Positions 1 to 22,825 of a stretch of 26,486 nucleotides of DNA are shown piece by piece. The translations under genes were made by a program, and so were the position numbers. Numbering within the stretch: the stretch's first letter is position 1; the number at the start of each line of letters is the position of its first letter. The stretch comes from a virus. Location: positions 1 to 26,486 of IMG/VR virus record IMGVR_UViG_3300049734_000122. One strand, given 5' to 3'. The notes beneath the pieces are model-generated. The model searched no databases. It had not been told where the DNA came from and was given only the letters and a program-made list of their open reading frames with translations.

Positions 1-21
1 GGCGCCCCACTCGGTGGGGGT

Positions 22-696
22 ATGCGCCCGTCCCCCGCGCCCCCCCCCCACGGCTCGACCGACCCGACGCCGGGCTCGTATGTCGGGACGCCGGATCTCA
101 CCATTGCGCCCGAGTGGCGCGGCGAGCGGTGTTTCATCATTGGCGGCGGCGAAAGCGTGACCGCGCAACGGCCGACGATCCCGCACCTCCGCGGGCGCTT
201 TATCGCGATCAAGCAAGCGGTCGCCCTCCGGCCCGATGCCGATGTGATGTTCGTGTCGGGCAAGCGCGCATACGAAATTTGCGCGCCGGTGCTCCCGCTG
301 TTTACCGGCAAATACATCATTACGCGCGGCCGCGGGGATCCGCGCTTTCCCGGCCCGGTCTCGCGCATCGGGCGCACCAAAATTGTCGATCGGCTCTGCG
401 AGGATCCGCGCTATGTCGCCGGCCTCGATGCCGGCACCTCGGCGATCAACCTGGCGTACCACTTCGGCGCGACCGAGATCGTGCTCCTCGGGCTCGACTA
501 TTGCGGTGCCCGCTGGTGTAACGGCGAGTACCCGCATTTTCAGCCGGTGCCGCCAAGCGAACATCACCGCCGGCACCTCGCGTGCCTCCCGCGGTTTGCC
601 GCGGATCTCAAGAAAAAAGGGATCCGGGTGATCAACACCTCGCGCCGCTCGCGCGCGACGATGTTCGAAAAACGCTCGCTTGAGGCCTTCCTATGA
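22..696 (+). CDS. Rossmann-type glycan/sugar enzyme, DUF115-like (phage)
   Basis: 224 aa. A nucleotide-binding-like opening (CFIIGGGES, residues 37-45) and a later segment (TSAINLAYHFGATEIVLLGLD, about 139-159) match the pattern of Rossmann-like DUF115/MptE-type and sialyltransferase-like proteins often found in phages; I recognise this only from motif style. It is the first of seven overlapping genes for sugar or methyl transfer and its stop overlaps the next start by ATGA (693-696). ATG at 22 is the first available start, but the frame is open to the window edge and the G-run just before it is too close for a normal ribosome site, so the true start may lie upstream of the window. The first 20 residues are Pro-rich and may be a linker. 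Function inferred, substrate unknown. Confidence 0.6.
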   Translation: MRPSPAPPPHGSTDPTPGSYVGTPDLTIAPEWRGERCFIIGGGESVTAQRPTIPHLRGRFIAIKQAVALRPDADVMFVSGKRAYEICAPVLPLFTGKYIITRGRGDPRFPGPVSRIGRTKIVDRLCEDPRYVAGLDAGTSAINLAYHFGATEIVLLGLDYCGARWCNGEYPHFQPVPPSEHHRRHLACLPRFAADLKKKGIRVINTSRRSRATMFEKRSLEAFL

Positions 697-1229
697 CCGG
701 CGCCTTGATTACGCCGGGGTACTTGTGGGAGCAAAAGCGGCTCCACGCCGAGCCGCGGGGCTACGGGCAACGCGGGCGCAAGTGGGCGGCCGAGGTGGTC
801 GCCCTGGCCTCGGCGTATCGGTGCGCAAGCGTGCTTGATTACGGGTGCGGGGCCGGCTCGCTCGGCGAGGTCTTACGCACGGTGCCGGGGCGCCTCGAGG
901 TGCGCGAATACGATCCCGCGATTCCCGGCAAGGACGGGATCCCGACCGCGGCGGCGGATCTGGTGGTCTGTACCGACGTGCTCGAGCATGTCGAGGCGGC
1001 GACCTTGCCGGCGGTGCTGGCGCACCTCGAGGCGGTGACCGGGCGGGTGCTGTTTGTCGTGATCTCGCTCGTGCCGACCGCGAAAACCCTCTCGACGGGC
1101 GAGCAAGCGCATATCACGTTGCGCCCGGTGGCCTGGTGGCGCGCGGCGCTCGAGGGCGCCGGCTTTGCCGTGGTCGAGGAGCTTCCGATCCGGCCCGATA
1201 AGCAATGGGTGGCGGTGTGCCGATGCTGA
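693..1229 (+). CDS. class I SAM-dependent methyltransferase
   Basis: 178 aa. SAM-binding motif I is clear (VLDYGCGAGS, residues 47-56), followed by an acidic EYDP (72-75) and the post-I/II motif DVLEHVE (95-101). This is the classic Methyltransf_11/23 pattern with a shortened fold. A conserved C-terminal helix region (AHITLRP..WW...L..AGF) resembles methyltransferases acting on sugars or small molecules. The start overlaps the upstream stop (ATGA) and the stop overlaps the next gene, so it belongs to one translationally coupled cassette. The substrate is not visible; the neighbours, all glycosyltransferase- or methyltransferase-like, suggest O-methylation of a glycan. Confidence 0.8.
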   Translation: MTGALITPGYLWEQKRLHAEPRGYGQRGRKWAAEVVALASAYRCASVLDYGCGAGSLGEVLRTVPGRLEVREYDPAIPGKDGIPTAAADLVVCTDVLEHVEAATLPAVLAHLEAVTGRVLFVVISLVPTAKTLSTGEQAHITLRPVAWWRAALEGAGFAVVEELPIRPDKQWVAVCRC

Positions 1230-1909
1230 CGATCGCATGCGTCTTTGTCGAGGGCGAGTACCCCTATACGCCCGAGTACGTGCACCGGTTGTACGCCATG
1301 GCGAAACGCTGGACGCGGCAACCGTTTCAATTCGTGTGCCTCACCGACCGGCCGCACCTGATCACCGATGCGATCCGCACGATCCAAGTCGCACGGATCC
1401 CGCATTGTTGGGCCTTCTGGACAAAAGTACGCCTCTTCGATCCGCGCCTCGGGTTCACGGGCCGTATGCTCGCGATGGATCTCGATTCCCTGATCGTCGG
1501 GCCGCTCGATGACTTCGCCGATTTTCCGGGGCCGCTCGTGCTCGCGACCGATGCCCTGGTCGAGGTGCCCGACGAGGTGGCGCCGCTCGAGGGCGCGCGC
1601 GATCGACACGGGCGGGCGCTCGTCCAGAAATTTCAAGGCTCGATCATGGTCTGGGATGCCGGCGCGGTCGATGATCTGTTTTTGGAGTGGGCGCCGGTGG
1701 TCGCGCGCCGGCTCTCGACCGATCAAGATTGGGTCGGCGAGCAATACCCCTTCGCCGCGCGCGTGCCGCTCGCGTGGACACCGCGGATCTCGCAAATCCG
1801 CGAGGGGCCGATCCCGCCCGAGGCGCGGCTCATCTTCTGCAAAAAACCGAAGAATCACGAGGCCGCCGAGATCTTCCCGTGGGTCGCGGACGTGTGGGGG
1901 GCCGCATGA
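1223..1909 (+). CDS. GT-A-type glycosyltransferase-like protein (copy 1)
   Basis: 228 aa from ATG 1223, chosen because it gives a 7-base overlap with the upstream stop; an ATG at 1205 is also in frame. A metal-binding DxD motif lies in MDLDSL (D86, D88), preceded by a strand carrying VCLTD (38-42), and is followed by FQGSIMVW and a TDQDW motif. These mark a GT-A fold nucleotide-sugar transferase of the GT8-like type. The same motif order occurs in the gene at 3835-4548 (VCVTD, LDLDT, YNGSMI, SDQGW), so the two are paralogues. It is coupled to the next gene by ATGA. The acceptor and sugar donor are unknown. Confidence 0.7.
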   Translation: MLTIACVFVEGEYPYTPEYVHRLYAMAKRWTRQPFQFVCLTDRPHLITDAIRTIQVARIPHCWAFWTKVRLFDPRLGFTGRMLAMDLDSLIVGPLDDFADFPGPLVLATDALVEVPDEVAPLEGARDRHGRALVQKFQGSIMVWDAGAVDDLFLEWAPVVARRLSTDQDWVGEQYPFAARVPLAWTPRISQIREGPIPPEARLIFCKKPKNHEAAEIFPWVADVWGAA

Positions 1910-2517
1910 TCCGCCAAGCGGGGTACTGGTGGCCCGATGATGTCGGCGACGCCTGGCGGCATGCCCTCCGGCACGTCGGATCGCTCGAGTGGGCGATCGC
2001 GGCCTGTCGCGAGCGGCGCACCGCGGTGCAAGCCGGCGGGAATGTGGGCCTCTGGCCGCGCCGGCTCGCGGAAAGTTTCGCGCGCGTCTATACCTTCGAA
2101 CCGGACGCGCGCGCGCGCGCGTGCCTCGAGAAAAACGTGCTCGCTAACGTGATCGTGTCGGCGGCCGCCGTCGGCGAGCGCGCCGGGGTGTGCGCCCTCG
2201 ATCACCGCGGCCTCGGCTCACACCGGATCATCGAGGGCGACGCGGTGCCGGTCGTGCCGATCGACGACCTCGCGCTGACCGATTGCGACCTTTTGCAACT
2301 CGACGTTGAGGGGTACGAGTGGCACGCGCTCGCGGGCGCGCGGGCGACGCTCGCGCGGTGCCGGCCGATCGTGCAAGTCGAGTTACGCGGCTTTACCAAT
2401 AAGTACGGGCAAACCGATCAAGCGGTGCGCCACTTGCTCGCCGGCCTCGAGTATCGGCTCGCGTGCGAGCGGCCGGGATCCGATTTCGTCTTTGTCCCGC
2501 GGCGGGTGACGGCATGA
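1906..2517 (+). CDS. FkbM family methyltransferase
   Basis: 203 aa from ATG 1906, which overlaps the preceding stop by 4 bases. The central QAGGNVGLWPRRLAESF (SAM-binding region), VYTFEPD (acidic residue binding the ribose) and especially LLQLDVEGYEWHALAGA near residue 130 are hallmarks of the FkbM family, which O-methylates hydroxyls, often on sugars. The length is normal for a phage FkbM protein. It lies between two other transferases in the coupled cassette, which supports methylation of a glycan assembled by the neighbouring glycosyltransferases. Confidence 0.85.
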   Translation: MIRQAGYWWPDDVGDAWRHALRHVGSLEWAIAACRERRTAVQAGGNVGLWPRRLAESFARVYTFEPDARARACLEKNVLANVIVSAAAVGERAGVCALDHRGLGSHRIIEGDAVPVVPIDDLALTDCDLLQLDVEGYEWHALAGARATLARCRPIVQVELRGFTNKYGQTDQAVRHLLAGLEYRLACERPGSDFVFVPRRVTA

Positions 2518-3053
2518 CGATCCCCGAATTCGACGCGATCGTGGCGACTACGCCGTACGTCAAGAGCGGGATGTTTTTCTCCGAACTGTATTTATTTCTG
2601 TCGCTGTGCAAGCAATTGGCCGTCGATCTGATCATCGAGTCGGGCGTGAAAAACGGCAACTCGACGCGGACCCTCGCGGCCGCGGCCGGCGTGCCCGTGA
2701 TCGCGATCGACTTCAAAAACTTTTGCGCGCCGCTCGCCGGGGTCGAGTTTCGCAAGGGCGACGCGCGCGAGATCGTGCCGGTGCTCCTCGCCGAGCACAC
2801 CGACCGGCGGATCGGGATTCTCCTCGACGGGCCGAAAAACGACAAGGGGCGCGCGCTCAAAGATCGGTGCCTGACCTTTCCGCACGTGCGGATCGTGGCC
2901 TGTCACGACACCTTACCGGGGTTTGGCGAAACGGTGCACAGTCACGATCCCGCGATGCGCGCGGCTCACGCCGCGCTCGATCGCCATATCCCCGATCCCT
3001 TTTACTCGGCGGCGCCCAATGGGCCCGGCCTCGGCGTATGGGTGGCCGCATGA
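2514..3053 (+). CDS. SAM methyltransferase-like protein
   Basis: 179 aa from ATG 2514 (ATGA overlap with the previous stop). It has an IIESGVKNGNST glycine-type loop (40-51), a following acidic strand AIDF (64-67), KGDA (81-84) and LLDGPK (103-108), the order seen in Methyltransf_24/TylF-like and cephalosporin-hydroxylase-like SAM enzymes. The usual E/D-x-G-x-x-x-G spacing is kept. A later CHDT and a histidine-rich stretch could bind metal, as in TylF-type O-methyltransferases. It is the third methyltransferase-like gene of the cassette. Substrate unknown. Confidence 0.65.
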   Translation: MTIPEFDAIVATTPYVKSGMFFSELYLFLSLCKQLAVDLIIESGVKNGNSTRTLAAAAGVPVIAIDFKNFCAPLAGVEFRKGDAREIVPVLLAEHTDRRIGILLDGPKNDKGRALKDRCLTFPHVRIVACHDTLPGFGETVHSHDPAMRAAHAALDRHIPDPFYSAAPNGPGLGVWVAA

Positions 3054-3838
3054 AAGGGCGCGCGTTGACCCTCGTCTTGCCCTACTACCGCAACCGCGGC
3101 ATGTTGCGCGAGCAACAAGCGATCTGGTCAAGCTATCCCGACCCGCTCAAAGCGCGCTTGCATGTGATCGTGGTCGATGACGGCTCGCCGGCCGATGAGG
3201 ACGCGCGCGCGGCCTTCGCGATCGTGCCCGGCCTGGCGTCTCAACGGCTGTTTCGGATCGGGGTCGACATCCGATGGAATTGGCTGGCATGCCGCAACCT
3301 CGGCATGTCGAAGGCCTCGACCGAGTGGGTACTCCTGACCGACATGGATCACGCGATGCCGGTCGAGACCTTGCACGCGCTCACGTCAAAGAAACTCGAC
3401 GATGCGCACGTGTACCGCCTCTCGCGGGTCGACGCGCCGCATCCCTGGCCGTATTCCCTCGAGGCGTGCACGGTGCGCCGGCGCAAGGATGGCTCAATCC
3501 ACATACATCCGAATACCTGGCTGATGACGGTCGACATGTTCGATCGTGTCGGCGGCTACGATGAGCGGCTCTCCGGGTGCTACGGGACGGACGGCGAATT
3601 TCGCGCGCGCGTGACCGCGGCCGCCGGCGTGATCATGCGCGACGAGCCCTTGATCCGCTATCCGCGCGAGGTGATCGCCGATGCCTCGACGGTCGGGTTT
3701 ACGCGCAAACACGATCCCGACAATGACGCCGAATTGAGCCGGCGCCGCCTCGCGCGCGAGGCGCAACAAGGCTGGCGGCCGTTGCGGCTGTCGTTTCCCT
3801 GGACCCTCGAGGTCGAGGCCGGCGAGGTGACGCCATGA
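3050..3838 (+). CDS. family 2 glycosyltransferase
   Basis: 262 aa from ATG 3050, overlapping the previous stop by ATGA. A textbook GT2 signature is present: LTLVLPYYRNR at the N-terminus, VVDDGSP (41-47), an ACRNLGM segment, and the DxD-like LLTDMDH (about 95-101), with an acceptor-side GGYDERLSGCYGTDGEF. No membrane segment is visible, so it acts in the cytoplasm, probably transferring a sugar from a nucleotide donor to a glycan or a virion protein. The stop overlaps the start of the next transferase gene. Confidence 0.85.
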   Translation: MKGRALTLVLPYYRNRGMLREQQAIWSSYPDPLKARLHVIVVDDGSPADEDARAAFAIVPGLASQRLFRIGVDIRWNWLACRNLGMSKASTEWVLLTDMDHAMPVETLHALTSKKLDDAHVYRLSRVDAPHPWPYSLEACTVRRRKDGSIHIHPNTWLMTVDMFDRVGGYDERLSGCYGTDGEFRARVTAAAGVIMRDEPLIRYPREVIADASTVGFTRKHDPDNDAELSRRRLAREAQQGWRPLRLSFPWTLEVEAGEVTP

Positions 3839-4548
3839 GGCCGGCCGCGGTGATCACGTGGAAATGGCGGCCGATCAGCCGGAACTATCGATCGACGTTT
3901 CGCGCCGAGACGGTCAACACGCTGTTTCGGATGGTACGCCGGCACTACCCCGAGCCCTTTCGCGCGGTGTGCGTCACCGACGATCCGCACGGGATCGATC
4001 CGTCGATCGAGATCGTGCCGATCGGCGATCACCTCGCCACGATCCCCAACCCGCACGGGGCCCAGAATCCAAGCTGCTACCGGCGGCTTCGGATGTTTGC
4101 GCCCGAGGCGGCCGACACCTTCGGGCCGCGGTTTGTCTCGCTCGACCTCGACACGGTGATCACCGGCGACCTCGTGCCCTTGTGGGATCGGCCCGAGGAG
4201 TTTGTCGCCTGGGGGGATACCAACCGCGGGACGCATTACAACGGCTCAATGATCCTCTTGACCGCCGGCGCGCGGCCGCGGGTGTGGCAAACCTTCGATC
4301 CGCGCGACTCCCCACGCAAAGCGAAGGCGGCCGGCTGTTTCGGATCCGATCAAGGTTGGATTTCCTATTGTCTCGGGCCCGGTGAGGCGCGATGGGGCCG
4401 GGCCGACGGCGTGTACTCCTATCGCAACGACATCAAACGATCGGGGCGCTTGCCGGCCGGCGCGCGCATTGTGTTTTTTCACGGGCGGATCGATCCCTGG
4501 GCCCGCGAGGCGCAAGCCCTCGACTGGGTACGCGAGGCCTGGCACTAA
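3835..4548 (+). CDS. GT-A-type glycosyltransferase-like protein (copy 2)
   Basis: 237 aa. It carries VCVTDD (45-50), a DxD in LDLDTV (D104, D106), YNGSMI (135-140), GSDQGW (170-175) and a C-terminal FFHGRIDPW. The motif order matches the gene at 1223-1909, making the pair ancient paralogues rather than a recent duplication, because the sequences are well diverged. The start overlaps the GT2 stop (ATGA). It is the last gene of the sugar cassette: its TAA shares its final base with the ATG of the tail terminator gene, which ties the cassette to the tail operon. Donor and acceptor unknown. Confidence 0.7.
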   Translation: MRPAAVITWKWRPISRNYRSTFRAETVNTLFRMVRRHYPEPFRAVCVTDDPHGIDPSIEIVPIGDHLATIPNPHGAQNPSCYRRLRMFAPEAADTFGPRFVSLDLDTVITGDLVPLWDRPEEFVAWGDTNRGTHYNGSMILLTAGARPRVWQTFDPRDSPRKAKAAGCFGSDQGWISYCLGPGEARWGRADGVYSYRNDIKRSGRLPAGARIVFFHGRIDPWAREAQALDWVREAWH

Positions 4549-4997
4549 TGGACGTGTTTTCGATGGTGCGCGCGTACATCCTGGCCGACCCGGCGATCAC
4601 GGCTCAGATCGGGACGCGTCTGTACCCGATCAAATTGCCGCAAGCGCCGACGTTTCCCGCGATGACGATGCAGCGGATCAGTAATTTTCCGGCCTCGTCG
4701 CTCCGCGGTCGCGCGAGCTTGGCCCGGCCGCGCTATCAATTCGACGTGTGGACGAAAGAGGGCACAAGCTCGGCGTTTTCGAGCACGCAAACCATCGGCA
4801 ATTTGTTACGGGCGCGACTCGAGGCCGCCAACGTCGATCTCCTCGATGAAAGCGTGTCACCGGCCGAGTATCGGCGCTTTGCGTTTGATTTCGACACCGA
4901 CCGCGACTTGTACGAGACCGATGTCAACGGAGGGTACTTTCGGTATTCGGCAGATTACTTGATTTGGCATCAAACCGGGGAAGGCCCGACAACGTAA
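4548..4997 (+). CDS. tail terminator / tail completion protein (DUF3168-like)
   Basis: 149 aa, starting at ATG 4548 inside the stop of the previous gene. The protein opens with a short helix, then LADPAITAQIGTRLYPIKLP, a proline, MTMQRIS, RPRYQFDVWT and a helix with TIGNLLRARLE. This is the layout of the DUF3168/gp17 family, which caps the tail tube and joins it to the head in siphoviruses. It lies directly before the tail tube gene, the usual place for this family. Its start depends on coupling, as no separate ribosome site is evident. Confidence 0.75.
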   Translation: MDVFSMVRAYILADPAITAQIGTRLYPIKLPQAPTFPAMTMQRISNFPASSLRGRASLARPRYQFDVWTKEGTSSAFSSTQTIGNLLRARLEAANVDLLDESVSPAEYRRFAFDFDTDRDLYETDVNGGYFRYSADYLIWHQTGEGPTT

Positions 4998-5009
4998 ACG
5001 GAGGACATC

Positions 5010-5561
5010 ATGAAGCGATGGGATTTCAAGGGCGGGATTTTTGTACGGATCGGGCGAATGTGGATCGGGCTCGTGCCGGCCTGGCCCGCGATCTACTGGT
5101 GCCCGGTGATTGCCGGCGGATCGGATGGCATGCCGGCGCAAGGCTCGTACCTGCTGATGGCCGCGAATGCCGGCGAGTCGCCCGATAGTCTGCAAGAAAT
5201 TTCGGAGGTGACGAGTATCAGCGGGGGCGGCGGCACGACCGAGCGGATCGACTTTACGCACCTTCGAAGCCCTGGCCGGCGGCGCGAGTACAAACCGAGC
5301 TTTATCGATTCGGGGATCTTGTCGTTCACGATTCAATACATTCCGGCCGACGCCTCGCACATTGCGATCCTCGCGTACCTCGACTCGCAGGAGGAATTTG
5401 TCATGCGCGAGGTCTTCCCCGACGCGACCGGGTGGGATTACTACGGGTACATCGCGAGTGTCGAGAAAACCGGGCAAGACGTGGGCGGGAAAATTCTCCT
5501 GAATGTGACGTACCAGATCACCGGCGCGATCGACTTTACGGGCACGGGCTCGCCGGCCTAA
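5010..5561 (+). CDS. major tail tube protein
   Basis: 183 aa. Residues about 41-183 show the lambda gpV/TP901-like tail tube pattern: ISEVTSISGGGGTTERIDFTHL, SPGRRREY, GILSFTIQYIPADASH, then YYGYIASVEK and a closing TYQITG. It polymerises into hexameric rings around the tape measure. A GGAGG site 5 bases upstream supports ATG 5010, which adds about 40 mostly hydrophobic and Trp-rich residues not usual for the family; an internal ATG at 5130 would give the usual N-terminus but has a weak ribosome site. It follows the tail terminator and precedes the chaperone genes, the usual order. Confidence 0.8.
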   Translation: MKRWDFKGGIFVRIGRMWIGLVPAWPAIYWCPVIAGGSDGMPAQGSYLLMAANAGESPDSLQEISEVTSISGGGGTTERIDFTHLRSPGRRREYKPSFIDSGILSFTIQYIPADASHIAILAYLDSQEEFVMREVFPDATGWDYYGYIASVEKTGQDVGGKILLNVTYQITGAIDFTGTGSPA

Positions 5562-10026: not shown

Positions 10027-10937
10027 TGGCCGCGCCCGCCTTCAACACGATTTATACGCACTACTCCGACGAGGTGGCGCGGCTCGCCGATACCATCGAG
10101 ATCGAAAACGACACCTCGCCCTCGCTCTCGGGCGGTGACGATTACGCGCCCGAGGTGCTCGTCGATGACAACCCGGCGAAGGTCGCGAAGATCAACGAGA
10201 CCGATGGGGGCTCGCCGGCGGTCGGGCTCGTGTCGGGCGCCTGGATCTTTTCCTACTCGGCGCCGCAACCGATCGCGGTCGCCGGCCTGATTCACCATTC
10301 CTTTGACGAGACCGAATCGGTCTCGCCCGGCTCGCCGGCGCCGAGCGTGCGCCTCGAGGGGAATAGCACAAGCGATTTTTCGAACCCGGAATTTTCGGCG
10401 GCCTTTACGATCCCGCCCTGGCTCGGCACCGGTACCGGTCGCTGGCCGCAAAATCCCTGGCTCAATCTCACCGAGCAATCGGGGTACACCGCCGAGGGTT
10501 TCCAATTTTGGCGGCTGGTGATTGAAAACAATTCGCAAAATATTCAACTCGGGCAAGTCGTGTTTGGCTCGACGTTGCGGCAATTCGATCCCGACTTGCG
10601 GTGGGGCCTTCGCATCAATGCCGACAAGCCGCAAATTGAAAACCGGACAAGCTTCGGCGTAAGCACGATCTACGCGCGCGGGACGACGATCTGGAATCAA
10701 GAGGCGGATATTTTGCTCACCGATGACATGCGCGACGCGCTCGAGGCGCATTGGTACGACGTAGAAGGGCGCGCGCGTCCCTGGCTGTTAATTCCCTCCG
10801 GCCCTGGTGATCCAACCCGGTGCTATCTCGTGCGCTACACGATGACCGAGATCGCCGAGCAATGGCAAACGCACGAGACCTTTTCCAAGCGGCTGCAATT
10901 TCAAGAGGTCGGGCGCGGCCTTCGGCCCGGTGTGTAA
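10026..10937 (+). CDS. distal tail / minor tail protein with discoidin-like domain
   Basis: 303 aa, ATG sharing one base with the tape measure stop (TGATG). A beta-sandwich runs from about residue 65 to 185 with the features of F5/8-type (discoidin) carbohydrate-binding modules found in phage minor tail proteins: GLIHHSF, a run of WPQNPWLNLTEQSG, FQFWRLVIENNSQNIQLGQVVFG. The C-terminal third (YARGTTIWNQEADILLTDDMRD) resembles the attachment part of tail proteins. The position after the tape measure is that of the distal tail (Dit-like) protein, which joins the tube to the hub. Exact family not certain. Confidence 0.65.
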   Translation: MAAPAFNTIYTHYSDEVARLADTIEIENDTSPSLSGGDDYAPEVLVDDNPAKVAKINETDGGSPAVGLVSGAWIFSYSAPQPIAVAGLIHHSFDETESVSPGSPAPSVRLEGNSTSDFSNPEFSAAFTIPPWLGTGTGRWPQNPWLNLTEQSGYTAEGFQFWRLVIENNSQNIQLGQVVFGSTLRQFDPDLRWGLRINADKPQIENRTSFGVSTIYARGTTIWNQEADILLTDDMRDALEAHWYDVEGRARPWLLIPSGPGDPTRCYLVRYTMTEIAEQWQTHETFSKRLQFQEVGRGLRPGV

Positions 10938-14348: not shown

Positions 14349-14704
14349 TGACAACGCCGAACTCCCCGATCCCGATCCAACTGCAATCGCTGCCCGCCTG
14401 GTTACAAGCCGCGGTCTTTCTCGGCGTCCCGAGTGTGATCGCGCTCTTTCTCGTGTACGTGGTCACGATGTCCATGGCCGCGCGTATTGTCGCGATTGAG
14501 CAAGCGCAAGCGAGCCAAATGCAAACGTTGCAATTGATCAAGATGGCCGGCGAGGCGCGCCAGGCTGACGCCGAAGCGACAAAGGCCCATTTCGACGCCG
14601 GCGTGGTGCGCATCGAAACGCTCTTGCGCGCGATGTGCGTCGCGATTGCCTCGACGCAAGAGGGCCGCACGCGCTGTACCATGGCGGGCCAATTGGTACC
14701 GTGA
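14345..14704 (+). CDS. small single-pass membrane protein
   Basis: 119 aa from ATG 14345, overlapping the hub stop by ATGA (ATG 14348 is an alternative). One clear membrane helix lies at about residues 20-43 (LQAAVFLGVPSVIALFLVYVVT), followed by a helical region with many Gln, Ala and Glu (EQAQASQMQTLQLIKMAGEARQ...). The topology resembles i-spanins or small phage tail/lysis membrane proteins, but no family motif is seen. It is followed by the beta-helix protein; a role in lysis or in anchoring is only a guess. Confidence 0.65.
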   Translation: MMTTPNSPIPIQLQSLPAWLQAAVFLGVPSVIALFLVYVVTMSMAARIVAIEQAQASQMQTLQLIKMAGEARQADAEATKAHFDAGVVRIETLLRAMCVAIASTQEGRTRCTMAGQLVP

Positions 14705-14717
14705 GGAGGGGAACCCC

Positions 14718-15998
14718 ATGCAACGAAAGGTCATTACGATCGACTCGGGGCTGCAACCCGCGATCAACGCGCTCACGCCTGGCGATACGCTGATCGTCGC
14801 ACCGGGGATTTACCGCGAGCGGTGCGGCGATCTCAAGTGCAAGGGCACCGAATCGGCACCGATTCGGATCATCTTCGAAGAGGGCGCGATCGTTCGCGGC
14901 ACGCGCTTTGTTCCGGCGGCCGATATGACGCCGGTCGGCGGCAACGTGTACCGCTTTCCTTGCCCGTTCGATCCGTTTCGGGTCGTGCAACTCGATCCCT
15001 GGGAACCGATCCGCGTGACCGACCCGGTCAATAAGTCCACGTTTGTGCTCGAGGAACCGGCGTTAATGGAAAAGGTGTCGGATCCCGCCGTCGTGCTCGA
15101 GGTGCCGGGCTGTTTTTCGTATGAACTCCCGACACAAGGCACGCCGACGGTTCTCGCGCATTTGTTTTGCCCGCTCGGCGAGGGGATCGAGGTGGGCCAG
15201 CAATACGACGGGACGATTTCAATTCGCACGCAGTACACCGATTTCAGCGGCTTGCGCCACGAATACGCGAACGGGTGCCAATGGTACCGGGCGGTGCGTA
15301 CCGCCCTATTCGATACGACGCTCGTCGCCTCCCCGCTCGTCATGGTGGGTACCGCCTCGTGCCAAGTCAATCGGTTGCGTGTCGAGAACGTCATCACGCG
15401 CGGCGAGACTCACGAATGGCATCACCACGGCGGCGGCACCGCGATCACGGTGACCGATGATTGTCTCGAGACCACGATCGAAAACGTCGCCACGATCAAC
15501 AACTGGAACGGGGGCGGGTTTGGCGGGACGCATACGACCTTGCGCAATATCCAATGCTGTAACGCGCCGAATCACGGGATCGGCCTGGGCATGATCGGCG
15601 GTCGCTGCTCGCAACTCGGCGTCTGGAATACACAGGAGGGGCTTTGGATCACGACGCTGATCGATACCGTGATCGAGGATTCGTACCTGTCGGGCGCGAC
15701 GGCCGCCTATTTGTACCGCTCGTGCTCGAACGTGGCATTTCGGAACAACGTGATCGCAAGCAACGGGATGAAAATTCTCCCCGATTCAATCGCAAATTTC
15801 CAAAGCAATTGGAATGTGTTTCTCATGGCCGCGCGCCTCGATTATCGGTACAACAACGTCCGCGCCGATTCGATCGCCGAGGTGCGAGAAAAATTCGGCC
15901 TCGAAATGAACTCGATTCAGATCACCGATCCCGCGATGAGCCTCGGCGCCTTGCGCGCGCTGCGCGGCGTGACCGATCTAACAAAGCAACTCTTTTGA
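14718..15998 (+). CDS. right-handed beta-helix protein (tailspike/depolymerase-like)
   Basis: 426 aa from ATG 14718, placed 6 bases after a GAGGAGGGG ribosome site. The N-terminus SGLQPAINALTPGDTLIVAPGIY is the standard opening of pectate-lyase-like beta-helix proteins (DUF1565/Beta_helix). The middle contains stacked repeats with Asn and Gly turns (VENVITRGETHEWHHHGGGT, IENVATINNWNGGGFGGTHT, LRNIQCCNAPNHGIGLG, FRNNVIASNGMKI). Such proteins bind or cut host polysaccharide when placed in the tail. Its place after the tail hub supports a virion role. No catalytic residue is assigned. Cys-rich turns (QCCN) are unusual. Confidence 0.75.
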   Translation: MQRKVITIDSGLQPAINALTPGDTLIVAPGIYRERCGDLKCKGTESAPIRIIFEEGAIVRGTRFVPAADMTPVGGNVYRFPCPFDPFRVVQLDPWEPIRVTDPVNKSTFVLEEPALMEKVSDPAVVLEVPGCFSYELPTQGTPTVLAHLFCPLGEGIEVGQQYDGTISIRTQYTDFSGLRHEYANGCQWYRAVRTALFDTTLVASPLVMVGTASCQVNRLRVENVITRGETHEWHHHGGGTAITVTDDCLETTIENVATINNWNGGGFGGTHTTLRNIQCCNAPNHGIGLGMIGGRCSQLGVWNTQEGLWITTLIDTVIEDSYLSGATAAYLYRSCSNVAFRNNVIASNGMKILPDSIANFQSNWNVFLMAARLDYRYNNVRADSIAEVREKFGLEMNSIQITDPAMSLGALRALRGVTDLTKQLF

Positions 15999-19558: not shown

Positions 19559-20209
19559 TTAGCGCACCTCGGTTAAGGTCCATTGCACGCCGTTAGAAAT
19601 CGTGACCTCGACGGTCCCGCCGCTCGTGAGGTGTACGCCTTCGTACCGCGTGCTCTCATGCCGCCGCCCGATGATCTCGTTGACGAGCAACCGGCCGCCG
19701 ACCCGGATCACGAAATTTGAACCATCGCCCGTGTAGACGCCGACCACGTGCACGCGCGAGACATAGGTCGGCATTTCAAACACGGTATTGCCAACGCCTG
19801 AGTGCGTCCACACTTGCGCCGGGATGAGATTGAGGGTGACGAGGCCGCGCGCGAATACGTTTTGACACGTCGTGGTGATCGTCGCCTGGCCGGAATTGTG
19901 CGCGGTCAAGAGGCCGGACCCGCTCACGCTCAACGCGAACGGATTATCCGAGGCCCACCCCGCACACGTGGGCGTGACGTTTTGCGTTGTCCCATTCGAG
20001 AACGTGCCCGTTGCGGTGATCTGCGCAGTCGCGCCCGCTTGTCGGAGCGAACTCAACGCCGCCGCTAAACTCACCGATTGCAGCGTCGGCGTGGTCGGCG
20101 TGGTCGGGGGCGTGCTCGTCGGCGGTGTGGGTGCGGCGGGATTGCTCTTACTGCCGCATGCGGCGAGGAGGAAACAGAAAACAATGGGGAAGCTGAATCG
20201 TCGGATCAT
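19559..20209 (-). CDS. secreted lipoprotein with Ig-like domain
   Basis: 216 aa. The N-terminus is a lipoprotein signal peptide: basic start, hydrophobic core (FSFPIVFCFLLA) and lipobox LAAC with C18 followed by G. A Pro/Thr linker (about 25-42) leads to a BIG2-like Ig domain (TLQSVSLAAALSS... WASDNPFALSVSGSGLLTAHNSGQATI, about 42-115) and a C-terminal beta domain (about 130-216, ending TLTEVR). It has its own promoter and lies outside the structural operon, so it may be expressed in the lysogen, possibly altering the host surface or blocking superinfection (inferred). A similar C-terminal domain is in my memory from Acidobacteriota proteins, but I cannot verify it. Confidence 0.75.
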   Translation of the reverse strand: MIRRFSFPIVFCFLLAACGSKSNPAAPTPPTSTPPTTPTTPTLQSVSLAAALSSLRQAGATAQITATGTFSNGTTQNVTPTCAGWASDNPFALSVSGSGLLTAHNSGQATITTTCQNVFARGLVTLNLIPAQVWTHSGVGNTVFEMPTYVSRVHVVGVYTGDGSNFVIRVGGRLLVNEIIGRRHESTRYEGVHLTSGGTVEVTISNGVQWTLTEVR

Positions 20210-20255
20210 TTACGCGCGCTCTCCTGTTATTGCGTGGATATTCACGCAAGACACG

Positions 20256-20284
20256 AGTGTATCATAGGTGTATTCTCGCGTCAA
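20256..20284 (-). promoter_or_regulatory. sigma-70-type promoter of the lipoprotein gene
   Basis: On the minus strand TTGACG (20284-20279) and TACACT (20261-20256) are separated by 17 bases, with TG two bases before the -10 (extended). The start codon is 47 bases downstream, after AGGAG. Overlaps the 30-base region shared with the integrase promoter. Confidence 0.7.
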
Positions 20285-20347
20285 GTGGGGGGTTTTTGTA
20301 CTGAAAACTTCCGCCGGCCGGCGGCCGGTGCGATAACGGTCGACGCG

Positions 20348-21172
20348 ATGCGGCGCTTTCGGTTGTGCGAGTGGCTCGCGCGCCTGATCTTCGGGCCGCC
20401 CATGGGGGTCGGGCTCAATACCCATTTCGGGTATGTCATCGGCGGCGACTACCTCACGCGCGCGCATGCGGTCGGCTATCGCCTGGCGCGGATCGACGGG
20501 CAGAACTGCACGACCGCGATCATGCTCGAGCAAATCGCCGAGGCCGAGGCCGCCGGCTTTCGCACATTAACAACGGTTTGGGAGGCCGCGCGCGTACGAC
20601 TCCTCGCCGGCAAGCGCGCGGAATTCTGGAATGAGCCCGACGGCGATCACCTCCCCGGCGTATTCCGGCGCTTGCTCGATGAGGCGTGCGCCGCGGCGTA
20701 CGAAAACGATGTCGAGCTTTGGGCGCCCGGTCTCAGCAATACCGATCGCGATTCGCTGCGCTGGCTCGAGGCGGTGCGCGACGCCGGCGGCGGCTGGCCG
20801 CGGCGCGGGCTCCGAGGGATCTCGCTGCACACCTACGGCCCCTTTCCCCATGATGGCTTTGCGACCCGCGAGGAGGAATGGGCCGCCGCGCGGGCCGCGT
20901 GCGCGGGCCGGCCGTTCATCGTGACCGAATTCGGCTGGGCCAATACCACCGGCTTCACCGAAGAGCAACAGGCCGCCGTCATGCGGAAGGAATGGCTCTC
21001 GATCGAGGCCGCCGGCGCGCGTGAGGCCTACGACTTCCAGATGTTGGATGGCACCGATCCCGACCAGCGCGAGCACCGCTATGGATCGTTTCGCTGCGAT
21101 GCGGCCGGCGTGATCGGGGAACTCAAACCGAAAGCCTATGTGATTCCTGATCACCTGATCGACGAGGTGTAA
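20348..21172 (+). CDS. clan GH-A (TIM-barrel) glycoside hydrolase
   Basis: 274 aa from ATG 20348; ATG 20402 is an alternative, and neither has a clear ribosome site. The protein has both clan GH-A motifs: EFWNEPDG at about residue 96-103 (acid/base Glu after Asn) and VTEFGWAN near 196-203 (nucleophile Glu). No signal peptide is visible. Catalysis on a glycan is well supported by these motifs, but the substrate is not. It heads a plus-strand unit with a small protein and a second TIM-barrel-like protein, outside the structural operon; it may be part of the virion, a lysis enzyme or a host-surface degrader. Confidence 0.75.
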   Translation: MRRFRLCEWLARLIFGPPMGVGLNTHFGYVIGGDYLTRAHAVGYRLARIDGQNCTTAIMLEQIAEAEAAGFRTLTTVWEAARVRLLAGKRAEFWNEPDGDHLPGVFRRLLDEACAAAYENDVELWAPGLSNTDRDSLRWLEAVRDAGGGWPRRGLRGISLHTYGPFPHDGFATREEEWAAARAACAGRPFIVTEFGWANTTGFTEEQQAAVMRKEWLSIEAAGAREAYDFQMLDGTDPDQREHRYGSFRCDAAGVIGELKPKAYVIPDHLIDEV

Positions 21173-21174
21173 GC

Positions 21175-21432
21175 ATGGCAACCGAGGACAACTTTTGCAT
21201 TTCGATGAAGTACTCATTCCCGGCGCCGGGCAAGGCCGGGCATTTCAACACCTACCATCCGAAGGATCAGACCGAGACGATCGTCAGCATCAACCCCGAC
21301 GGCAAGATCGAAACGCGCCCGGTGAGTGCGGCCGGCGGCGCCTGGGAAAGCTGGCAACCGAGCCCCGACGGCATGCGCGCGATCTTCTATGACCTCGACG
21401 GCGTGGTACGCGCGTACCCGCTGGTACCGTGA
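21175..21432 (+). CDS. small hypothetical protein
   Basis: 85 aa, starting 2 bases after the glycosidase stop with GAGGTG upstream. Beta-rich sequence (MKYSFPAPGKAGHFNTYHP, QTETIVSINPDGKIETRP, GAWESWQPSPDGMRAIFYD) suggests a small beta-barrel or carbohydrate-binding module resembling beta-trefoil repeats, and its place between two glycosidase-like genes fits this. No family assigned. Confidence 0.6.
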   Translation: MATEDNFCISMKYSFPAPGKAGHFNTYHPKDQTETIVSINPDGKIETRPVSAAGGAWESWQPSPDGMRAIFYDLDGVVRAYPLVP

Positions 21433-21433
21433 C

Positions 21434-22825
21434 ATGGCGACCAATCTGTTATTGCTCGATGTCGCGCCGGCGCCGGTGCGCCCGCAACCGGCCGGCCTGT
21501 TACGACCCGAGGGCCGCGGCGTGCGCGATGACGGCGGCCGCCGGCGCTTGCTCGGGGTCTCGCTGTTTTGGGCGGTCTCAGGATTCAAATTCGAGCGCGA
21601 TCGGCTGTTCAAAAATCTTGACTGGGCGGCCGAGCGCGTCGACTTCGTGCGGATCCTCGGTGACGTGACCGATTGGGATACGCAAACGCCGCCGGGAACC
21701 AATATCGACGCGACTTGGCCCGATTACGAGGAGATGCTCGCCGGCACGCTCGAGGCGATCGCGACTCGCGGGATGCGGACGGCGATCGCATGCGTCGGCG
21801 GCGGGCATAACGATCCGCTCGCGATCGGCCGCCGGATCGCGAATGTGTGCACCTCGCGCCGCGCCTGGCTGGCGTACCTCGAGGCCTGCAACGAGGCCGA
21901 CGCTCACGGCAAGATCACCGAGGCCGACCTCGTGGCCCTCGGGCAACTCTTACGCGCGTCGATGCCCGACGTATTGATCGCGCTCTCGAGACCGAAACCG
22001 ACCGGCGACAGTGACGGGCGCGATCGGATGAAAGAGCTTATGCGCGAGGTCGGCGGGCCGATGGTCTTTCCGAATCACACCGATCGCAAAGACGGGGATC
22101 GCGACTGGCGCAAGGTCCGGCAGTGTTACGACTTCGAGCAATACGAGCCCTGGCCGGCGAGTGATCAAGAGGGGCCGCCGGTGCAATCCGTCGACGGCTT
22201 TAACTCGCCGCTCCAGCACGCGATCAAGGCGTTCCTCGCGCATATGGCCGGGGCGCCCTTCTACGTCGTGCACCTCGGCGCCGGCACGAAAGGGGTACCC
22301 AACCCCGCGGTCGGGCGGCCGGCAAACCTCTACGAGGTGCCCGAGGCCGATCCGATCATTCGCGCCGTACGCCTGGCGCAAGCCCTGTGCCCGGCCGACC
22401 TCGAAAACTGGCGGGTCGTGAATAACGGCCGAAACGATCATCCGTTGCCCTTGCCCGAGGAAATCGGGATCGGCTTTTGGGAAGGCGACGGCGACGCGGT
22501 GAAAGGCGACCTCAACAAGAATTACGCCGCGCTCGGGCCGGGCGGGCAATTCGTCTCGGTCCTGTGCGGCGTGAATAGCACCGAGGAGGTCGGGCCGCGG
22601 CGGGTGACAAGCGGCGCCCTTCGCGGGTGCCACGTGCTCGCGATCGAGCCGGTGACCGGCGCCCGGCTCGAGGGCGACCTCGCCGCCGGCGCGGTGTGGA
22701 CGGTGCCCGGCCGGCGGGATCGCAACGTCGGGTACCTCGTCTTTGGCTCACCGCTCGCCGCCGGCCGCGAGCCCGACACCGTGAAACCGACACCGAAGAA
22801 ACGAAGGATGAAATGGAAACTCTAA
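21434..22825 (+). CDS. TIM-barrel glycosidase-like protein
   Basis: 463 aa from ATG 21434, one base after the previous stop. After a Pro/Gly/Arg-rich N-terminus comes GVSLFWAVSGFKFERDRLFKN, a beta/alpha alternation and LEACNEADA near residue 158, which corresponds to the NE acid/base motif of clan GH-A. A clear second catalytic Glu was not found, so activity is uncertain. The last 80 residues form a beta-rich domain with a basic tail (KKRRMKWKL). It may be a degraded or non-catalytic relative of the 20348 enzyme, acting in sugar recognition. Confidence 0.55.
   Translation: MATNLLLLDVAPAPVRPQPAGLLRPEGRGVRDDGGRRRLLGVSLFWAVSGFKFERDRLFKNLDWAAERVDFVRILGDVTDWDTQTPPGTNIDATWPDYEEMLAGTLEAIATRGMRTAIACVGGGHNDPLAIGRRIANVCTSRRAWLAYLEACNEADAHGKITEADLVALGQLLRASMPDVLIALSRPKPTGDSDGRDRMKELMREVGGPMVFPNHTDRKDGDRDWRKVRQCYDFEQYEPWPASDQEGPPVQSVDGFNSPLQHAIKAFLAHMAGAPFYVVHLGAGTKGVPNPAVGRPANLYEVPEADPIIRAVRLAQALCPADLENWRVVNNGRNDHPLPLPEEIGIGFWEGDGDAVKGDLNKNYAALGPGGQFVSVLCGVNSTEEVGPRRVTSGALRGCHVLAIEPVTGARLEGDLAAGAVWTVPGRRDRNVGYLVFGSPLAAGREPDTVKPTPKKRRMKWKL

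Follow-up and report, generated by a model that had tools for sequence, protein, structure and literature searches.

A portable cassette of predicted glycosyltransferase and methyltransferase genes in the morphogenesis operons of tailed phages

Phage particles are commonly pictured as bare protein. Virion glycosylation has, however, been published for the mycobacteriophages Che8, Corndog, and Myrna (Freeman et al., 2023, via PMC12363180, PMC12619734, PMC11256854, PMC10877033). Here, we describe a glycosylation gene cassette in a stretch of viral DNA of 26,486 bases (the window), which is the entire IMG/VR record IMGVR_UViG_3300049734_000122 and has linear ends, which often indicate that a record is a fragment. 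In the window's species, nine overlapping predicted genes lie between the head-completion gene and the tail terminator gene, in the order Maf-like, GT-D, Maf-like, methyltransferase, GT8-like, FkbM, probable methyltransferase, GT2, and GT8-like, and the last seven are present in the window (g1 to g7, Table 1). On balance, we favor the view that they form a portable, phage-dedicated module for protein glycosylation, with O-glycosylation of the virion as the likeliest function.

The likeness to the mycobacteriophages is that the glycosyltransferases are phage-encoded and without membrane segments; in the mycobacteriophages, such enzymes modify capsid and tail-tube proteins (PMC12363180, PMC12619734). 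The three annotated glycosyltransferase genes of Che8 (108-110) occupy the right genome end (positions 56171-58673 of 59472), unlike the cassette with its site in an operon. When Che8 gp108-110 were compared with the profile hidden Markov models (HMMs) of the cassette, only gp109 was matched, as a remote relative, by the GT2 model at 2e-7, and the eight other HMMs were silent at E 10.

Another related system is the O-glycosylation of flagellin at Ser/Thr by the bacterial Maf enzymes, which takes place in the cytoplasm, before export (PMC4065374), and one Maf has been reported to take both Kdo and Neu5Ac (PMC11339370). The AlphaFold2 (AF2) model of g1 had a predicted local distance difference test score (pLDDT) of 91.1, and in VIA-align the Maf of Magnetospirillum (5mu5) came first through its catalytic domain, with a Z score of 16.2, a root-mean-square deviation of 4.5, and 198 aligned residues, followed by MptE (Z 12.1) and CstII (Z 11.5). 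MptE is a pterin enzyme, and CstII is a Campylobacter sialyltransferase of lipooligosaccharide synthesis. The AF2 model of g7 (pLDDT 94.2) was closest to LgtC (Z 18.4) and glycogenin (Z 17.2), and the model places g7 in GT8, with a predicted GT-A fold of the LgtC/glycogenin type and a conserved DxD motif; the columns D104, D106, G145, D172, and Q173 are invariant across 28 aligned sequences. The gene directly upstream of g1 is related to the GT-D/SP_1767-type glycosyltransferases, as it passes the cut-off of PF08759 (2.5e-25, 90 bits versus a cut-off of 27) and fails that of TIGR03728 'glyco_access_1' (5.8e-28, 98 bits, far under the cut-off of 291). PF08759 was found in 7 of 12 records searched.

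Among the phage collection, the closest cassette is that of the Tetraselmis viridis viruses S20 and SI1. S20 contains relatives of both Maf-like genes, the GT-D gene, g2, g4, g6, and g7 between the head genes and the head-closure/tail terminator genes, and no relative of g3 or g5 at the thresholds of our identity table. It differs in that the cassette stands before the head-closure gene, the order of the FkbM and GT2 genes is reversed, two additional genes without a family are present, and the genes have been annotated piecemeal. SI1 yielded matches to all five genes that were searched in the collection (g1, g7, GT-D, g4, and g6). In phage P1, the block pmgO-pmgP-ppp-pmgQ (L076:4075-6630; L numbers designate the loci compared) contains two genes that match the iterated Maf-like HMM, pmgO and pmgP, and one that matches the GT8-like HMM, pmgQ, which was also found by tblastn (24%). 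No match to GT-D, GT2, or methyltransferase genes was found within the 12.6 kb of P1 examined, and the block lies away from the head-tail junction, unlike the cassette in the window. The notes of the P1 record list putative morphogenetic functions for pmgO, pmgP, and pmgQ, and pmgO and pmgQ also bear enzyme product names.

The initial annotation had described seven overlapping genes that run into the tail terminator gene, and the coordinates of the open reading frames (ORFs) and the letters at the joins agree with this: five of the six internal joins are four-base ATGA overlaps, g2 and g3 overlap by seven bases, and g7 and the tail terminator gene have one base in common (TAATG at 4548). Its count of three methyltransferase-like genes stands as well, with g5 as a probable member. 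The remaining genes had been described as three glycosyltransferases and one Rossmann-type gene, and the latter label has to be given up, because g1 matches PHROG 4603 and has Maf as its best structural match, so that the set comprises four glycosyltransferase-like and three methyltransferase-like genes. The view that these seven genes are complete was also too narrow. The near-identical contigs L004 and L028 extend further upstream and encode, in this order, a collagen-like protein, a head-tail connector, a head-completion protein (PF01391, PF05135, and PF05521 in L004), a second Maf-like protein with 31% identity to g1, the GT-D protein, and g1. At the left border of the cassette in L004, the head-completion gene joins the first Maf-like gene at GTGA.

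A cassette-free relative, L078, was found via its tail terminator. In L078, the head-completion and tail terminator genes overlap directly, also at GTGA, and its DNA is 66% identical to L004 until the head-completion gene ends and 70% identical to the window from 4563 onward, just inside the terminator gene. The proteins of L078 and the window's species are 61% (adaptor), 69% (head-completion), 60% (terminator), and 73% (major tail protein) identical; another tail protein reaches 30%, gp10 is unmatched, and none of the nine cassette genes appears in the identity table. Eight cassette HMMs had no match across the 58,408 bases of L078, whereas all seven structural HMMs match there. The g7-family and g1-family profiles and PF08759 also found nothing in L078, an empty result that is weak by itself, without a positive genome; the local HMM scan is the firmer test of absence, because the same HMMs match in other loci. 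As L078 keeps the junction of head-completion and tail terminator genes without the cassette, the cassette is an accessory insertion within the operon, and the earlier contention that it is expressed with the morphogenesis genes rather than as a separate moron is not supported as regards the moron. The major tail protein of L078 (L078:10491-11246) is read as 251 aa, compared to 183 aa in the window, and has a C-terminal extension that is missing from the protein in the window.

Comparisons with other phages argue that the cassette is a portable module that settles in morphogenesis operons. Relatives of every one of the seven genes occur in other phages, and phages with poorly related or unrecognizable neck proteins bear cassette genes, with g7 mostly 47-64% identical. 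L005, for example, contains seven of the nine cassette genes at 42-63% identity while lacking a match to any of the six neck and tail genes that were compared, and its tape-measure gene is matched in part (25 and 39%). The position of the cassette was compared across 26 g7-bearing records from species other than the window's, namely 22 loci from the g7 search, S20, and three loci from a scan of bacterial genomes; SI1, EBPR siphovirus 3, P1, and loci found by g1 alone are outside this count. In 21 of them, the cassette lies at most 350 bases from an identified head or neck gene, or in 18 if the collagen-like gene is not accepted as a neighbor. These distances are between stop-to-stop ORFs, and not all records are independent, because L010 and L011 as well as L025 and L026 are identical in the genes compared. 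The slots differ: the cassette is found before the connector gene (e.g., L007, L012, L015, and L031), after the head-completion gene (the window's species and L019), or, in S20, past the head genes and ahead of head closure. Two loci have a head-completion match between GT2 and g7 (L021:8750-9169 and L022:7875-8291), which places a structural gene within the cassette. In L030, L033, L035, and L036, g7-type matches flank on both sides a long ORF, which we read as a putative lambda-type portal gene. In L034, a radical-SAM gene of the cassette (L034:5616-7907, a relative of L031:3031-4125) seems to be split by an intein-like insertion.

Rough estimates indicate that the cassette genes are under purifying selection. 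The dN/dS ratios (Nei-Gojobori, stop-to-stop ORFs) between L021 and L022 were 0.03-0.13 for five cassette genes and 0.05-0.20 for structural genes, all of them rough values at a dS of 0.7-1.1, and those of the cassette genes of L030 and L033 were 0.18-0.36; L031 and L032 are too similar for ratios, which reached up to 0.98. The relatives in other phages and the low dN/dS values together show that the cassette genes are real. A foreign base composition was also considered as a mark of the cassette and was discarded, as the third-position GC content of 0.81-0.87 differs too little from that of the structural genes (0.73-0.83).

The family assignments and the features of the window are summarized in Table 1. 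The PHROG label for g1 is 'alpha-2,3-sialyltransferase', and g3 is a paralog of g7 (24% identity, BLASTP 2e-11). No match for g5 was found in Pfam, PHROG, or NCBIfam; relatives of g5 with 41-43% identity are present in the cassettes of L016, L031, and L032, and a dedicated g5 scan returned the window's species only. The N-terminus of g1 is best taken from L004, because the first approximately 50 bases of the window conflict with L004 and L002, probably through an assembly error that shifts where g1 seems to start. Downstream of the cassette follow the genes for the tail terminator, the major tail protein, a tail-completion/HK97 gp10-like protein, and the tape-measure protein. Three long ORFs past the tail genes (14646-15998, 20168-21172, and 21335-22825) have no Pfam or PHROG match at 0.01.

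Table 1. Features of the cassette and its borders in the window.
Feature	Position	Strand	Evidence
Contig-end stretch, probable assembly error	1..49	+	mismatch versus the near-identical contigs L004 and L002
g1, Maf/CstII-like glycosyltransferase, MptE/DUF115-type fold	22..696	+	phrog_4603 1.7e-15; PF01973 6.5e-5, under cut-off
g2, class I SAM methyltransferase	693..1229	+	PF13489 3.1e-9, above cut-off; phrog_24759 1.3e-17
g3, GT8-like glycosyltransferase, start ATG 1223	1223..1909	+	phrog_1962 1.2e-13, residues 3-102 only
g4, FkbM-type methyltransferase	1906..2517	+	PF05050 3.5e-14 and TIGR01444 2.2e-16, each above cut-off
g5, probable class I methyltransferase	2514..3053	+	assigned by sequence reading
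g6, GT2 glycosyltransferase	3050..3838	+	PF10111 3e-8 and PF00535 3.2e-7, each above cut-off
g7, GT8-like glycosyltransferase, most conserved gene of the cassette	3835..4548	+	phrog_1962 5.4e-16
Tail terminator, right-hand cassette border	4548..4997	+	PF11367 1e-12; 60% identity to L078
Major tail protein, candidate acceptor	5010..5561	+	phrog_158 4.9e-19

As the cassette lies inside the morphogenesis operon, we infer that it is expressed late, together with the head and tail proteins, and that the virion is the target of glycosylation. At a late stage of infection, the enzymes would be translated alongside the head and tail proteins, and a Maf-like enzyme, either g1 or its upstream paralog, would add the first sugar to a Ser or Thr residue of a virion subunit while that subunit is still unassembled in the cytoplasm. 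This sugar would perhaps be of the Kdo or nonulosonate type and would be taken from a CMP-sugar of the host. The GT-D, GT2, and two GT8-like enzymes might then lengthen the chain, and the FkbM-type and the other methyltransferases might methylate, and thereby cap, the glycan. The likely gain would be a particle that is shielded or adheres differently. Candidate acceptors are the capsid protein and the major tail protein, as well as the collagen-like neck protein in those phages that have one. A more far-reaching version of this reading, which we hold only tentatively and at somewhat less than even chances, is that cytoplasmic O-glycosylation of the flagellin type, led by Maf, has become a transferable module of dissimilar tailed phages, inserts into the head-neck-tail operon, and gives the virion a coat of methyl-capped glycan based on Kdo or a nonulosonate, with P1 containing a reduced version.

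Genes beside some cassettes bear on the nature of the sugar. L029 encodes a KdsD/KpsF-like isomerase, which starts at 10627 on the final coding base of the Maf-like gene, and this hints at Kdo, although the isomerase match is below the equivalog and subfamily cut-offs. An NAD epimerase is encoded in the cassettes of L035 and L036, and a UDP-GlcNAc 2-epimerase and a PseB-like dehydratase in L072. Sialic acid, which the PHROG name of g1 would imply, was not accepted as the sugar, as the families of NeuB (PF03102) and CMP-sugar synthetase (PF02348) each occur in none of 24 phage records, which may be incomplete; as positive controls, they matched in 9 and 11 of 14 genomes, respectively. A nonulosonate donor would therefore have to come from the host.

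The missing donor genes, which also set the cassette apart from the Maf systems, weigh against Maf-led virion glycosylation, and so do several further observations. The match of g1 to Maf is limited to the catalytic domain, with 17% identity, and with 224 aa g1 is not a full-length multi-domain Maf, compared to the chain of 632 residues. MptE is the sole Foldseek match of g1 under E 0.001, and a profile of 32 g1 relatives lists, among PDB sequences, MptE at 0.0047 and CstII at 0.45 and up, with Maf absent up to E 1; the Maf reading is thus structural only. The nearest GT8 structure to g7, LgtC, is a galactosyltransferase of lipooligosaccharide synthesis. Five of the 26 records (L023, L024, L025, L026, and L081) have no identified head or neck gene within 350 bases. 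A Ser/Thr-rich C-terminus of the major tail protein was considered as acceptor and dropped, as no consistent signal was present among the major tail proteins compared. Long GXY runs typical of collagen-like proteins occur in L004, L005, L009, L014, L015, L017, and L020-L022; a collagen-like gene was not recognized in L031, L034, and S20, and therefore this neck protein is not the general acceptor, and it is also present in the cassette-free L078. The methyltransferases need not act on the sugar, because methylation of Aeromonas flagellin has been reported on lysines (PMC9290775). In addition, pmgO, pmgP, and pmgQ of P1 were scored as non-essential, with their role given as unknown (PMC10695390).

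Instead of the virion, the cassette might remodel a surface polymer of the host, namely the core or O-antigen of the lipopolysaccharide (LPS), late in infection or in lysogeny, which would block superinfection or reduce the sticking of progeny to debris. We regard this as unlikely, though it keeps some weight because LgtC, the closest fold to g7, and CstII, which is close to g1, both build lipooligosaccharides and thus act on such polymers. The window encodes a phage integrase (PF00589, 17911-19215, minus strand), which suggests that the phage is temperate, so that lysogeny is conceivable; the cassette, however, lies roughly 13 kb from the integrase gene, as part of the morphogenesis operon. 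Phage serotype-conversion (gtr) operons differ from the cassette by their GtrA flippase, which was not matched in any of 18 records (PF04138; control 7 of 14 genomes; the records may be incomplete), and none of the nine cassette proteins has a strongly hydrophobic segment, the peak 19-residue mean being 1.79 (g2), whereas a membrane-like ORF of the window reaches 2.76. Bacterial genomes also speak against a host pathway. In a scan of 84,980 bacterial and archaeal species, each represented by a single genome, 15 pattern matches yielded three confirmed g7 relatives; the scan used two short peptide patterns, for g7 only, so that relatives may have been missed. Two of the three (L079 and L080) adjoin phage neck genes, and L081 has no identified phage gene on its 4.7 kb. 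An ordinary LPS operon of the host was therefore rejected as the main explanation. The proposal of a dedicated glycan cassette in the head-tail operon has gained support, as the same kinds of genes are found at comparable places in other phages and relatives of g7 are very rare in the bacterial genome collection. Neither of the two outcomes that the initial annotation had named as refuting was observed: the genes were not seen as an ordinary LPS operon of hosts with matching gene order, and they are not absent from relatives, even though L078 lacks the cassette.

It is also conceivable, with a slightly lower probability than host surface remodeling, that the cassette is neutral or host-directed cargo that glycosylates host proteins or metabolites, and that its place among the late genes reflects tolerated insertion at gene joins. 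The variable slots, the absence of any cassette gene found in L078, and the dispensability of the P1 homologs in laboratory lytic growth are in agreement with cargo, whereas the position close to head and neck genes, seen in 21 of 26 records, and the purifying selection favor a role tied to morphogenesis, without proving it. By far the least probable explanation is that the glycosyltransferases modify bases of the phage DNA against restriction, even though DNA-hypermodifying glycosyltransferases of phages have been published (Pyle 2024, cited in PMC12619734). The methyltransferase, GT-D, and Maf-like genes fit poorly to DNA, and the thymidylate-synthase family (PF00303) was found in none of 18 records, i.e., L078 plus 17 records that have cassette or Maf-like genes, with the window's record outside this set (control 9 of 14 genomes; the records searched may be incomplete). 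The thymidylate-synthase family includes the base hydroxymethylases.

The enzyme set and the portability of the cassette look new relative to known virion glycosylation. The initial annotation had taken such a cassette to be probably undescribed, and this is right insofar as no account of the cassette as such was found in the open-licence literature searched, which is weak evidence of absence; it is too strong insofar as the genome of S20, with much of the cassette, has been deposited and mycobacteriophage virion glycosylation has been published. If O-glycosylation of the virion is indeed the function of the cassette, glycosylation of the particle would be a more general, and testable, trait among environmental phages. 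It would also point to what several of the unnamed 'pmg' genes do in P1, a classic laboratory phage, and it would add a new group of enzymes to the candidate glycosyltransferases for proteins.

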